64,000 nt of DNA, from contig JAUIMC010000002.1 of assembly GCA_030433215.1 (NCBI GenBank), forward strand, positions 62,001 to 126,000, written 5' to 3'. Made by a program: the position numbers and the translations under genes. Source of the stretch: Alphaproteobacteria bacterium. Its GTDB lineage: Bacteria > Pseudomonadota > Alphaproteobacteria > Caulobacterales > Parvularculaceae. Below the pieces are notes generated by a model, which saw only the letters and a program-made list of their open reading frames with translations, was not told the origin of the DNA and ran no database searches. Of this stretch, positions 62,256-64,000 are shown piece by piece (the stretch's first letter is position 1; every line of letters begins with the position of its first letter).

Positions 62256-62648
62256 ATGAACCCTCGCGCCGTCATCGCCGCCGCCGTCAGCACCCTGATT
62301 TTCGGGGCCGGCTGTTCGCGCGAGCAAATGGCCGTCCCCCCGGCGCCCAGCCTCAAGCCCCAATGCGGCGTCGCCTCCTATTATCACGACACCCTGGCGG
62401 GGAACCTCACCGCCAATGGCGAGATCTACGACCCGGAAGAGATGACCGCCGCCCACAAAAGGCTGCCCTTCGACACCGAGCTCGTGGTGCGCCGGCGCGA
62501 TACGGGCGAGACCGTGGAAGTGCGCGTCAATGACCGCGGCCCGTTCGTCAAGGGACGGATCATCGACCTCTCCCCCACCGCCGCCGAGGAAATCAGCCTT
62601 ACGGAAGGCGATGGGGTGGCTGAGGTTTGTTTGGTGCGGGTGGGATGA
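62256..62648 (+). CDS. RlpA-like lipoprotein (double-psi beta-barrel only)
   Basis: A 130-residue lipoprotein with signal MNPRAVIAAAVSTLIFGAGC and an RlpA domain (GVASYYHDTLAGNLTANGE, AAHKRLPFDTELVV, VEVRVNDRGPFVKGRIIDLS). It has no SPOR domain, so it cannot be targeted to septal glycan like the long RlpA at 10202-11212. ATG 62256 starts the signal peptide; the frame is open further upstream but runs through repeats. It is the last high-GC gene before the AT-rich retron region. Confidence 0.88.
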   Translation: MNPRAVIAAAVSTLIFGAGCSREQMAVPPAPSLKPQCGVASYYHDTLAGNLTANGEIYDPEEMTAAHKRLPFDTELVVRRRDTGETVEVRVNDRGPFVKGRIIDLSPTAAEEISLTEGDGVAEVCLVRVG

Positions 62649-62691
62649 GATGAATGAGGCTGCAGGCAGTAACTAACACATTTTTCAGCAA

Positions 62692-63612
62692 TCATTTTGC
62701 TAATGACATAATCTTTTTGATAACATTTGAATAACTCTTCAGCTCTGAAGACGCCGCCAATTCATCAAATCCTGATAGATAATTCAAATACCCCCGAAGT
62801 TTTGGTAACTCTGCAATAGATGCCTCTGGCATGAGTGAAGCATTATGGAACGCAGCTCTGACTCGACGGCGAAAGACGCGTGGAGGGCGAACGCCAGAAT
62901 TAGTAACTAGCCCAGTCACCCTTTGTTGAGCGTATCGACTTGCAATCCTAGTTTTTTCATCTTTTACTTTGAAGCCATTTTTGGATAAGCGTATTTTTGC
63001 GAATGTAAGCGCTGCAATAATTGTTTTGTGGCTTTCACCGCTAATGGTGATGTCATCTGCGTATCTAGTGTACTTTAAGCCCATTCTGAAACAGTACGCC
63101 GCCATCTCGGCGTCAAAATCAAACAGCACGGCATTGGAAATACTAGGGCTTGTGGGCGCTCCTTGAGGGAGGTGACCATCTTTGGTGCTTATAGCGGTCA
63201 ATAGAGATGATGACATCGTATCAAAGCCGCAGGCTACAAATAAGGAATGCACTTGGTTATGTGTTATTGATCCAAAGTAATTTTCTATATCTATATTAGC
63301 CACAAAACGCTTGCCAACATGTTGAGCTGCGTTTTCTTTAATACCACAGCGCGGTCGGTATGATGTCACAGACTCATGCACAGGTAATACATGAAAAAGA
63401 TAATCATTACAGAATTGCTGCGCTATCTTTAAGTACAAGCGTGGACTTTCAATGATGCGTTCGCCACCACACTTTTTCTTTAAAGAAAAGCTACGCCAAT
63501 GTTTTTCAGGCTTTCGAAGAAAGCTAACAATTAGCCCCGGAGATATTCCGATCATCAACCCCATTGTATTGGCGCTGATTTCGAGGGTTTCACTATGGCT
63601 ATTACTAGCCAA
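62692..63612 (-). CDS. Retron-type reverse transcriptase
   Basis: A reverse transcriptase of about 306 residues (numbered from TTG 63612) that would make msDNA from the msr-msd RNA encoded just upstream. Motifs: the retron NAxxH (N94-AAQ-H98), the first catalytic Asp (NIDIENYF, about 108), PQGAPTSPSISN (about 150), the YADD box (TRYADDITISG, 184-187) and the retron VTG (VTGLVTN, 232-234). The start is uncertain: ATG 63564 gives 290 residues, and the frame is open to the window edge through the RNA gene. Lower GC than all neighbours points to transfer. No effector gene follows; the next gene is the RlpA-like one on the other strand. Confidence 0.9.
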   Translation of the reverse strand: MASNSHSETLEISANTMGLMIGISPGLIVSFLRKPEKHWRSFSLKKKCGGERIIESPRLYLKIAQQFCNDYLFHVLPVHESVTSYRPRCGIKENAAQHVGKRFVANIDIENYFGSITHNQVHSLFVACGFDTMSSSLLTAISTKDGHLPQGAPTSPSISNAVLFDFDAEMAAYCFRMGLKYTRYADDITISGESHKTIIAALTFAKIRLSKNGFKVKDEKTRIASRYAQQRVTGLVTNSGVRPPRVFRRRVRAAFHNASLMPEASIAELPKLRGYLNYLSGFDELAASSELKSYSNVIKKIMSLAK

Positions 63613-63660
63613 ATTAAGCTGCTTGGCATTAGAGAATGAAAGATATTGATTGAAATCGGT

Positions 63661-63841
63661 GTCGCGTGAGGTTTGCAATGGACCAGTTTTAGATGAAAAC
63701 TGCTTTGAAAGGCGAGGCCAATAAATCTGGACTCTAGGGACGACGAGTCCAGATTTATTGGCCTCGCCCCTTTTTGTGAGTGTTCTTGCATCTACAGACG
63801 GCGAAACGCCGCCCGATTCCTTAACAAGCTCCTCACGCGAC
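63661..63841 (-). ncRNA. Retron msr-msd RNA gene
   Basis: Read on the minus strand: a1 GTCGCGTGAGG (63841-63831), then AGC with the candidate branching G at 63829, an msr hairpin (CGGCGtttCGCCG), the msd with a perfect 24-bp stem (arms 63745-63768 and 63711-63734) closed by a 10-nt loop, a second small hairpin (CAGTTTT, 5 nt, AAAACTG; 63684-63702), and a2 CCTCACGCGAC (63671-63661), which is fully complementary to a1. All parts of a retron RNA are thus present, immediately upstream of the reverse transcriptase. The ends are set by a1/a2. Confidence 0.85.
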
Positions 63842-64000
63842 TTCCCTATTCTAGCGCGATGGGCCGTTTTTAACAAGTAGATACGCTCTCTATCACGAGC
63901 GTATCTATACTCGCGGTCAAAATAGGCATTACCCCCCAAGGTAAGCGAAAATAAATTCGGTGAGCGGCGGATTCTGAGAAGCCGGCCAAGCCTCTCTTGT
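63842..64000. other. Region upstream of the retron RNA, cut by the window edge
   Basis: AT-rich DNA. An 11-bp inverted repeat with an 8-nt loop (TAGATACGCTC, 63878-63888, with GAGCGTATCTA, 63897-63907) lies 37 bp before a1. On the minus strand one frame is open from the edge straight into the reverse transcriptase, and another stops at 63929-63931 and might be the end of an upstream gene. Neither could be identified from so little sequence. Confidence 0.5.

Follow-up and report, generated by a model that had tools for sequence, protein, structure and literature searches.

Retrons are bacterial anti-phage systems that make DNA from a small RNA template. This RNA is usually regarded as a noncoding gene in its own right, an arrangement that we take to be typical, rather than defining, of retrons. 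That a functional RNA may derive from the message of the very protein that uses it is illustrated by the omega RNA, which is cut from the 3' end of the tnpB message. Retrons are sorted into types by a classification of which Mestre (2020) is reportedly the source, and Retron-Eco1 (Ec86) is presumably of type II-A. The effector of Ec86 is said to hydrolyse NAD and carries a DNA-binding domain of its own ('ribosyltransferase/DNA-binding protein'). Filaments formed by this NDT-like effector are described in PMC12887533, and triggering by methyltransferases is described for two other type II-A retrons, Asa1 and Squ1, in PMC12548924. In the type IX retron Kva2, a winged-helix (WH) protein encoded in the operon binds the msDNA, the effector is a HEPN protein, and the WH protein and the reverse transcriptase (RT) are separate proteins of 27 and 36 kDa (PMC13405049). 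The retron Ec73/Eco3 of phiR73 sits at the selenocystyl-tRNA locus and has an accessory ORF between its msr-msd and its RT (PMC6868368). The Ec73 RT is reported to work together with its ncRNA in human cells, and the numbering of its active site as Asp189-Asp190 implies that it has no long N-terminus (PMC8563936).

The retron at the edge of the window (the whole stretch of DNA analysed here, 64,000 nucleotides) shares a homologous RT and an NDT-like effector with Ec86, but differs from it, and from the other systems above, in layout. The RT frame is free of stops through the whole msr-msd RNA and begins with an ATG at L002:2153, so that the N-terminal winged-helix-like (wHTH) domain, a linker and the RT form a single ORF of 486 aa (window position 64000 is G000:C23:126000, and DNA beyond this edge is numbered as the L002 position plus 61999). 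The preliminary description had the RNA as a gene of its own directly ahead of the RT; instead, it lies in frame inside the wHTH-RT ORF and is thus not a separate noncoding gene. Of the retron parts and effector envisaged there, the RT and the RNA are located in the window, whereas the NDT-like effector is encoded just past its edge by a 191-aa gene, the stop of which overlaps the start of the long ORF (TAATG). Unlike in Ec86, the NDT-like protein is not joined to a DNA-binding domain; rather, the winged-helix-like domain resides N-terminal to the RT on the RT ORF, with the RNA between the two. The fusion also contrasts with the separate WH and RT proteins of Kva2, and the internal position of the RNA, with coding sequence on both sides, contrasts with the omega RNA at the 3' end of tnpB. 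The features of the locus are collected in Table 1.

Table 1. Features of the retron locus in window coordinates.
Feature	Position	Strand	Basis or remark
wHTH - msr-msd - RT single ORF, 486 aa	62692..64000	(-)	ATG beyond the window, at L002:2153 (window-equivalent 64152)
N-terminal winged-helix-like domain, in-window part, residues about 1-95	63868..64000	(-)	weak fold prediction from homologues
msr-msd ncRNA	63661..63841	(-)	wholly within the ORF, in frame
a1 (GTCGCGTGAGG)	63831..63841	(-)	sequence pairing
msr hairpin, 9-bp stem, 3-nt loop	63795..63815	(-)	fold; covariation of the inner pairs among homologues
Long msd hairpin, stem of 27 bp including G-U pairs (24 bp perfect), 10-nt loop	63708..63771	(-)	fold and inverted repeat
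Second msd hairpin, 7 bp	63684..63702	(-)	fold; conservation or covariation of the outer pairs among homologues
a2 (CCTCACGCGAC)	63661..63671	(-)	sequence pairing
Retron reverse transcriptase domain	62695..63568	(-)	Pfam, PADLOC and PDB matches
NAxxH motif (NAAQH)	63319..63333	(-)	sequence
YADD active site	63052..63063	(-)	sequence
VTG motif	62911..62919	(-)	sequence

The locus is confirmed to be a retron, as the preliminary description had called it on the strength of its RT motifs and RNA parts. The YADD, NAxxH and VTG motifs are all present in the RT, which matches Pfam RVT_1 (1.6e-24). The best PADLOC model for the RT is RT_II-A (2.6e-112), and its best relatives in the PDB are the retron RTs of Ec86 (2.3e-34) and Kva2, the latter matching the RT of the homologous locus L024 at 4.7e-38. 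The probability that the enzyme is instead an RT of some other class, whether of a group II intron, a DGR or a DRT, is negligible: the group II and DRT models give weak cross-matches, but the retron models score much higher, the group II maturase model reaching 70.8 bits where its cut-off is 300, and the NAxxH and VTG motifs as well as the conserved msr-msd structure argue for a retron. With the 322-aa C-terminal part as query, the NCBIfam model for the retron St85 RT (NF038233) gives 224.5 bits, below its curated cut-off of 235.

Assignment to type II-A is supported by two PADLOC models, RT_II-A and NDT_II-A (PDLC02929), the latter matching the NDT-like gene at 4.7e-36. The sole PDB match of the NDT-like effector at E <= 1 is the Ec86 effector, a weak match (E 0.7) that has the GSFxExGxF stretch in common. 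The 486-aa protein is covered end to end by RT_II-A (PDLC02940; 4.7e-146, residues 1-483 to positions 1-474 of 477), and the long protein is therefore already within a published model. RT_II-A is, however, a protein profile and says nothing of an ncRNA inside the frame that it covers.

The N-terminal ~100 residues are predicted to be winged-helix-like. With an E. coli homologue, Pfam DEP and HTH_45 are matched, both below cut-off, and a profile of the domain reaches a best E of 0.077 against the PDB. An AlphaFold model of the domain from the homologue L031 (pLDDT 56.1) exhibits a helix-helix-helix-strand-strand order, and a Foldseek search with this model returned 770 matches at E <= 10, mostly winged-helix regulators among the 50 listed, with 0/770 at E <= 0.001. 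The winged-helix name is used provisionally, because these matches are sub-threshold or insignificant and Pfam gives nothing at E <= 1 for the window's own N-terminal stretch. A model of the full L003 ORF was discarded as unfit for a fold search (pLDDT 46.9).

The linker between this domain and the RT (about residues 102-195) has a pLDDT of about 21-27 within the generally poor L003 model, and is poorly conserved except for GGxSPS-like and WxRxxxQ stretches. These properties would be in keeping with a protein that is translated through the RNA and then cut by a protease in the linker, yielding a separate wHTH protein and RT as in type IX, but nothing requires such a cleavage and we consider it improbable.

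Folding of the RNA inside the ORF gives the structure set out in the preliminary description. The a1 and a2 segments are perfectly complementary over 11 bp, the msr hairpin and the second 7-bp msd hairpin are both recovered, and the perfect 24-bp msd hairpin with its 10-nt loop stands, its stem lengthened to 27 bp by G-U pairs. As an inverted repeat (63711-63734/63745-63768; 24 bp, 100%, 10-nt loop), it is the longest of three pairs found within 62600-64000. The msr-msd has an MFE of -94.8 kcal/mol (z -11.75), and an equally stable fold is reached in 0/200 dinucleotide shuffles. Covariance models, proposed as a check, gave no match to a retron family in Rfam, where the two sub-threshold matches both lie elsewhere. 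The AGC after a1, singled out for its candidate branching G, differs among the homologues and is not conserved.

The pairing of a1 with a2 in homologues, named beforehand as a point on which the retron assignment could fail, is kept in 9/9 distinct full-length loci, window included. The a1/a2 sequences are mostly unrelated between lineages yet complementary, the helix being shorter or bulged in L003 and L026. Ten ncRNAs of the clade, including that of L020, were folded, and all form the a1/a2 stem, the msr hairpin and the longer msd hairpin (z -7.3 to -12.3, 60 shuffles each), with an msr hairpin of only 5 bp in the MFE folds of L024, L030 and L031. The msr hairpin and the second msd hairpin covary. 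For these two hairpins, to which the covariation analysis is confined and for which the ten rows include near relatives, 89.2% of cells are paired with the window fold as reference, compared with 39-53% when slid. Double changes are present in nine cells, a number reached in 0/500 shuffles, and the covariation score of 0.319, versus 0.204 when shuffled, is likewise reached in 0/500. Two weak measures, pairs with a double change and further pair types, are reached in 24/500 and 265/500 shuffles, respectively, and one outer msr pair forms in the window alone. Between L024 and L031, the ncRNA carries 0 synonymous and 3 nonsynonymous changes over 64 codons; the wHTH and RT parts of this pair are near saturation (pS 0.54 and 0.56).

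The same order, an NDT-like gene followed by one frame of wHTH, ncRNA and RT, is found in eight other distinct full-length loci. These include L003, from a gammaproteobacterial MAG and the sole relative to emerge from the genome-contig scan, and L005, from a genome of the same family, where 14/100 relatives have any RT match. Two further genomes (L101 and L102) and two viral contigs (L030 and L031, among the 71 loci of the viral scan) also have the full-length layout, while a further viral scan with L003 as query gave no relative. Along the whole ORF, the loci are about 32-41% identical to the window, and the gap between the NDT stop and the wHTH start is -4 to +1 in 6/6 loci tested. The layout looks rare in the genomes sampled: at E <= 1e-60, other full-length matches are present in 0/385 genomes of the class, at E <= 1e-70 full-length matches are present in 2/398 genomes of the phylum, and among 369 genomes from the class to which one of these two belongs, that genome is again the one match (E <= 1e-80).

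In E. coli, 8/5426 complete genomes match, six of which were examined (L024-L029; about 34-35% identity to the window). RefSeq has one CDS spanning the RNA in 6/6 of these records, and the RNA inside is not annotated. Because integrase, psu-like and ogr-like genes adjoin all six loci, we read them as putative P4-like satellites. A tRNA-Sec is annotated beside three of them (L024, L026 and L029), and the group possibly corresponds to that of phiR73/Ec73 (Eco3). Compared by description, the tRNA-Sec fits, but the Asp189-Asp190 numbering does not, and the accessory ORF between the Eco3 msr-msd and RT is unlike the layout of L024-L029. If Ec73 does belong to the clade, the fusion would not be needed for copying. 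A Klebsiella plasmid typed as conjugative carries a frame-broken copy of this retron type (L020:3000-4860), in which the ncRNA keeps its fold and remains within an open frame.

The GS(F/Y)xExG stretch of the NDT-like proteins is kept in the window, L003 and L005, and is altered in L024 (1822-2499), L026 (1619-2347) and L031. At the aligned position of its Glu, which we take to be catalytic, the NDT-like proteins of L024, L026 and L031 have Gln. The effector chemistry may differ within the clade, because the stretch is altered in the E. coli relatives.

Taken as a protein, the long ORF product is already within the PADLOC profile; the layout with an in-frame ncRNA, common to several bacteria and to E. 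coli phage satellites, appears from these comparisons to be a distinct one. In the open-licence papers that we searched, we found no mention of a retron RNA inside the RT frame, and we make no claim of its being unpublished.

The frame through the RNA is open at every full-length locus. Over nine distinct ncRNAs, one being taken for the identical L025, L028 and L030 and one for the identical L024, L027 and L029, with L020 and L004 left out, the coding frame has stops in 0/546 codons, whereas the other forward frames have 17/543 and 32/546. Chance alone, given a GC-balanced palindrome, is a very improbable reason for the open frame: at a single locus, dinucleotide shuffles leave it open in 4-21% of draws, but 9/9 distinct full-length loci are open in precisely the frame that joins the wHTH to the RT, against 49 stops in the other forward frames. 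The product of the shuffle probabilities over 7 of the 9 is 3.9e-8, a figure that is not itself a probability, since the loci are related. The frame is also kept between L024 and L030/L025/L028, the msd lengths of which differ by 39 nt. These are otherwise closely similar satellite retrons, and the 39-nt difference leaves a 12-bp stem.

Substitution patterns are at most suggestive of codon-level coding constraint inside the RNA. In alignments guided by the protein, which favours the coding frame, pN/pS of the ncRNA is 0.37 in frame versus 1.10 and 0.94 shifted for L024/L026 (ungapped), 0.70 versus 1.02 and 0.90 for the window and L003, 0.83 versus 1.00 and 0.83 for the window and L005, and 0.62 versus 1.27 and 0.81 for the window and L102, so that for the three pairs with the window the in-frame ratio is less distinct from the shifted ones or not below them. 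For two chosen pairs aligned as DNA, a third-position excess is seen with p = 0.026 (one-sided), and protein-guided counts for three pairs give p of 0.09-0.50, none significant. The conserved W-x-R codons could reflect conservation of the RNA rather than coding.

The nearest sister of the fused loci, L103 (G765), is split. Its order is NDT, a wHTH that ends at a stop immediately ahead of a1, ncRNA, and RT with an ATG at a2. L103 has NDT, wHTH, ncRNA and RT in common with the window, but is split by ordinary stops and starts. Its wHTH is homologous to the fused N-terminus (1.7e-7 to PDLC02940 positions 10-98). Counted from the end of the wHTH motif (RLFLLK or similar), a1 follows after 24-27 nt in 7/7 of the fused loci that were compared and after 27 nt in L103, and because this spacing matches, the RNA would occupy a homologous place in the two layouts. 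An ML tree of 79 RTs puts the 11 rows that carry the label embedded (the truncated L004, the frame-broken L020 and the nine full-length loci) on one side of a branch with an SH-aLRT of 86, and L103 joins them at 95; this was a quick tree with no bootstrap, from which 24 locus names (near-copies, fragments and distant rows) were left out by hand. Since the embedded rows group together on one side of the branch, fusion through the RNA looks like a single event, gain and loss not being told apart. Two rows outside the clade, L056 and L009, were considered as embedded RNAs and rejected: the best strong hairpin lies inside the stop-to-stop frame, but an in-frame ATG follows it. The other rows with their best hairpin inside the frame have weaker hairpins.

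A rival reading is a conventional retron in which the fusion is incidental or a relic and the wHTH and RT work as two proteins, precisely the split layout that L103, with its RT ATG at a2, displays. In such a retron, translation of the RT would begin internally, close to a2 or beyond it, the wHTH would come from ribosomes that halt, or from mRNA that is cut, at the RNA structure, and the open frame would be left over from a gene fusion. Indeed, in 5/9 loci (the window, L003, L005, L026 and L031) the interval from a2 to the RT core does contain an in-frame ATG, GTG or TTG, in some of them right at the core, and L024 and L030 have an ATG just 5' of a2. The msd hairpin would be a heavy obstacle to ribosomes (-49.0 kcal/mol for a 62-nt piece), and split WH and RT proteins are functional in Kva2 (PMC13405049). 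However, a relic would gather stops, yet there are none in the 546 codons across loci that are ~32-41% identical to the window, and a wHTH with no stop of its own would depend on non-stop rescue in each of the lineages. In addition, with the core placed by motif, the interval from a2 to the RT core is devoid of any in-frame ATG, GTG or TTG at 4/9 loci (L024, L030, L101 and L102). For two of these, L101 and L102, the RNA itself also lacks an in-frame ATG, and because both kinds of start are missing, it is difficult to see how their RT could be translated unless ribosomes enter the RNA. On balance, we regard a relic fusion as rather unlikely.

By sequence comparison, frame continuity, an RNA fold with covariation and operon order are all conserved. 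We consider it likely that the locus is a type II-A-like retron of variant layout, in which the NDT-like gene overlaps one ORF that runs from the wHTH domain, via a linker encoded through the msr-msd, to the RT, and the transcript of which serves as message or as template. The transcript would either be read by ribosomes to give the wHTH-linker-RT protein or, upon binding of the RT to the msr and processing of the a1/a2 stem, become the msr-msd precursor that is copied into msDNA. Translation and use of the msr-msd would compete, message and template being the same RNA, and since one mRNA could hardly be both, the supply of RT relative to template would be self-limiting. By analogy with Ec86 and with the msDNA-binding WH protein of Kva2 (PMC13405049), the wHTH domain, tethered in cis to the RT, may bind the msDNA duplex. 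The RT-msDNA complex would, again by analogy, keep the NDT effector inactive until phage proteins or DNA modification damage or bind the msDNA, whereupon the effector would be freed and cell growth would stop.

A more tentative extension of this message-or-template reading, to which we give somewhat less than even weight, is that one stretch of RNA performs three jobs, as codons of the wHTH-linker-RT protein, as msr primer and scaffold, and as msd template, with each transcript being either translated or reverse transcribed. If this were true, the layout would provide a built-in brake tying the RT dose to the template dose, and would deliver the RT and a DNA-binding partner in cis to the message that they convert into msDNA. 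The conserved features suggest that a 180-nt structured template can be selected as RNA while staying an open protein frame, and the layout raises the testable question of how message and template are kept in proportion within one retron.

The retron sits between the convergent lpd and rlpA genes. Its GC content is about 42-50%, compared with mostly 60-68% around it, and other stretches of 54-57% are also found nearby. From this AT-richness the preliminary description had drawn an acquired defence island, an idea that gains from the variable, often defence-like cargo at the 3' flanks of lpd in the genus. Among six other such flanks (G003, G004, G007, G008, G009 and G011), AT-rich genes are nearby in five, four of which give defence-like matches of varying strength: a DarT-NADAR pair in G004, another type II-A retron in G008 (L157, on the reverse strand just downstream of lpd; NDT_II-A 3.6e-73 plus an RT), a PD-Lambda-5_A homologue in G009 (3e-83) and a weak LmuA match in G011 (6.6e-6). 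The flank of G003 has a gene of 46% GC with no PADLOC match, and that of G007 a GC-rich gene. On this evidence the retron is located in what appears to be a genus-level defence hot spot beside lpd, and the lpd-rlpA interval would be a further simple place to seek defence genes in the genus. The L157 retron has a strong hairpin near the start of its NDT gene.

A degenerate second 3' end of lpd lies beside the retron, downstream of lpd itself (L002:2762-2893; 44 codons, 70%), and second lpd 3' ends are also present in two genomes of the same genus, G007 and G009 (loci L156 and L158). They look like an attachment-site duplication or a recombination exchange. An empty site was sought, and 0/7 rlpA loci compared with the window's stretch show the retron flank. 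Between lpd and the retron lies a SnoaL-like gene (L002:2907-3440), which is probably accessory as well, since it has only weak matches, in 5/26 other genomes of the genus.
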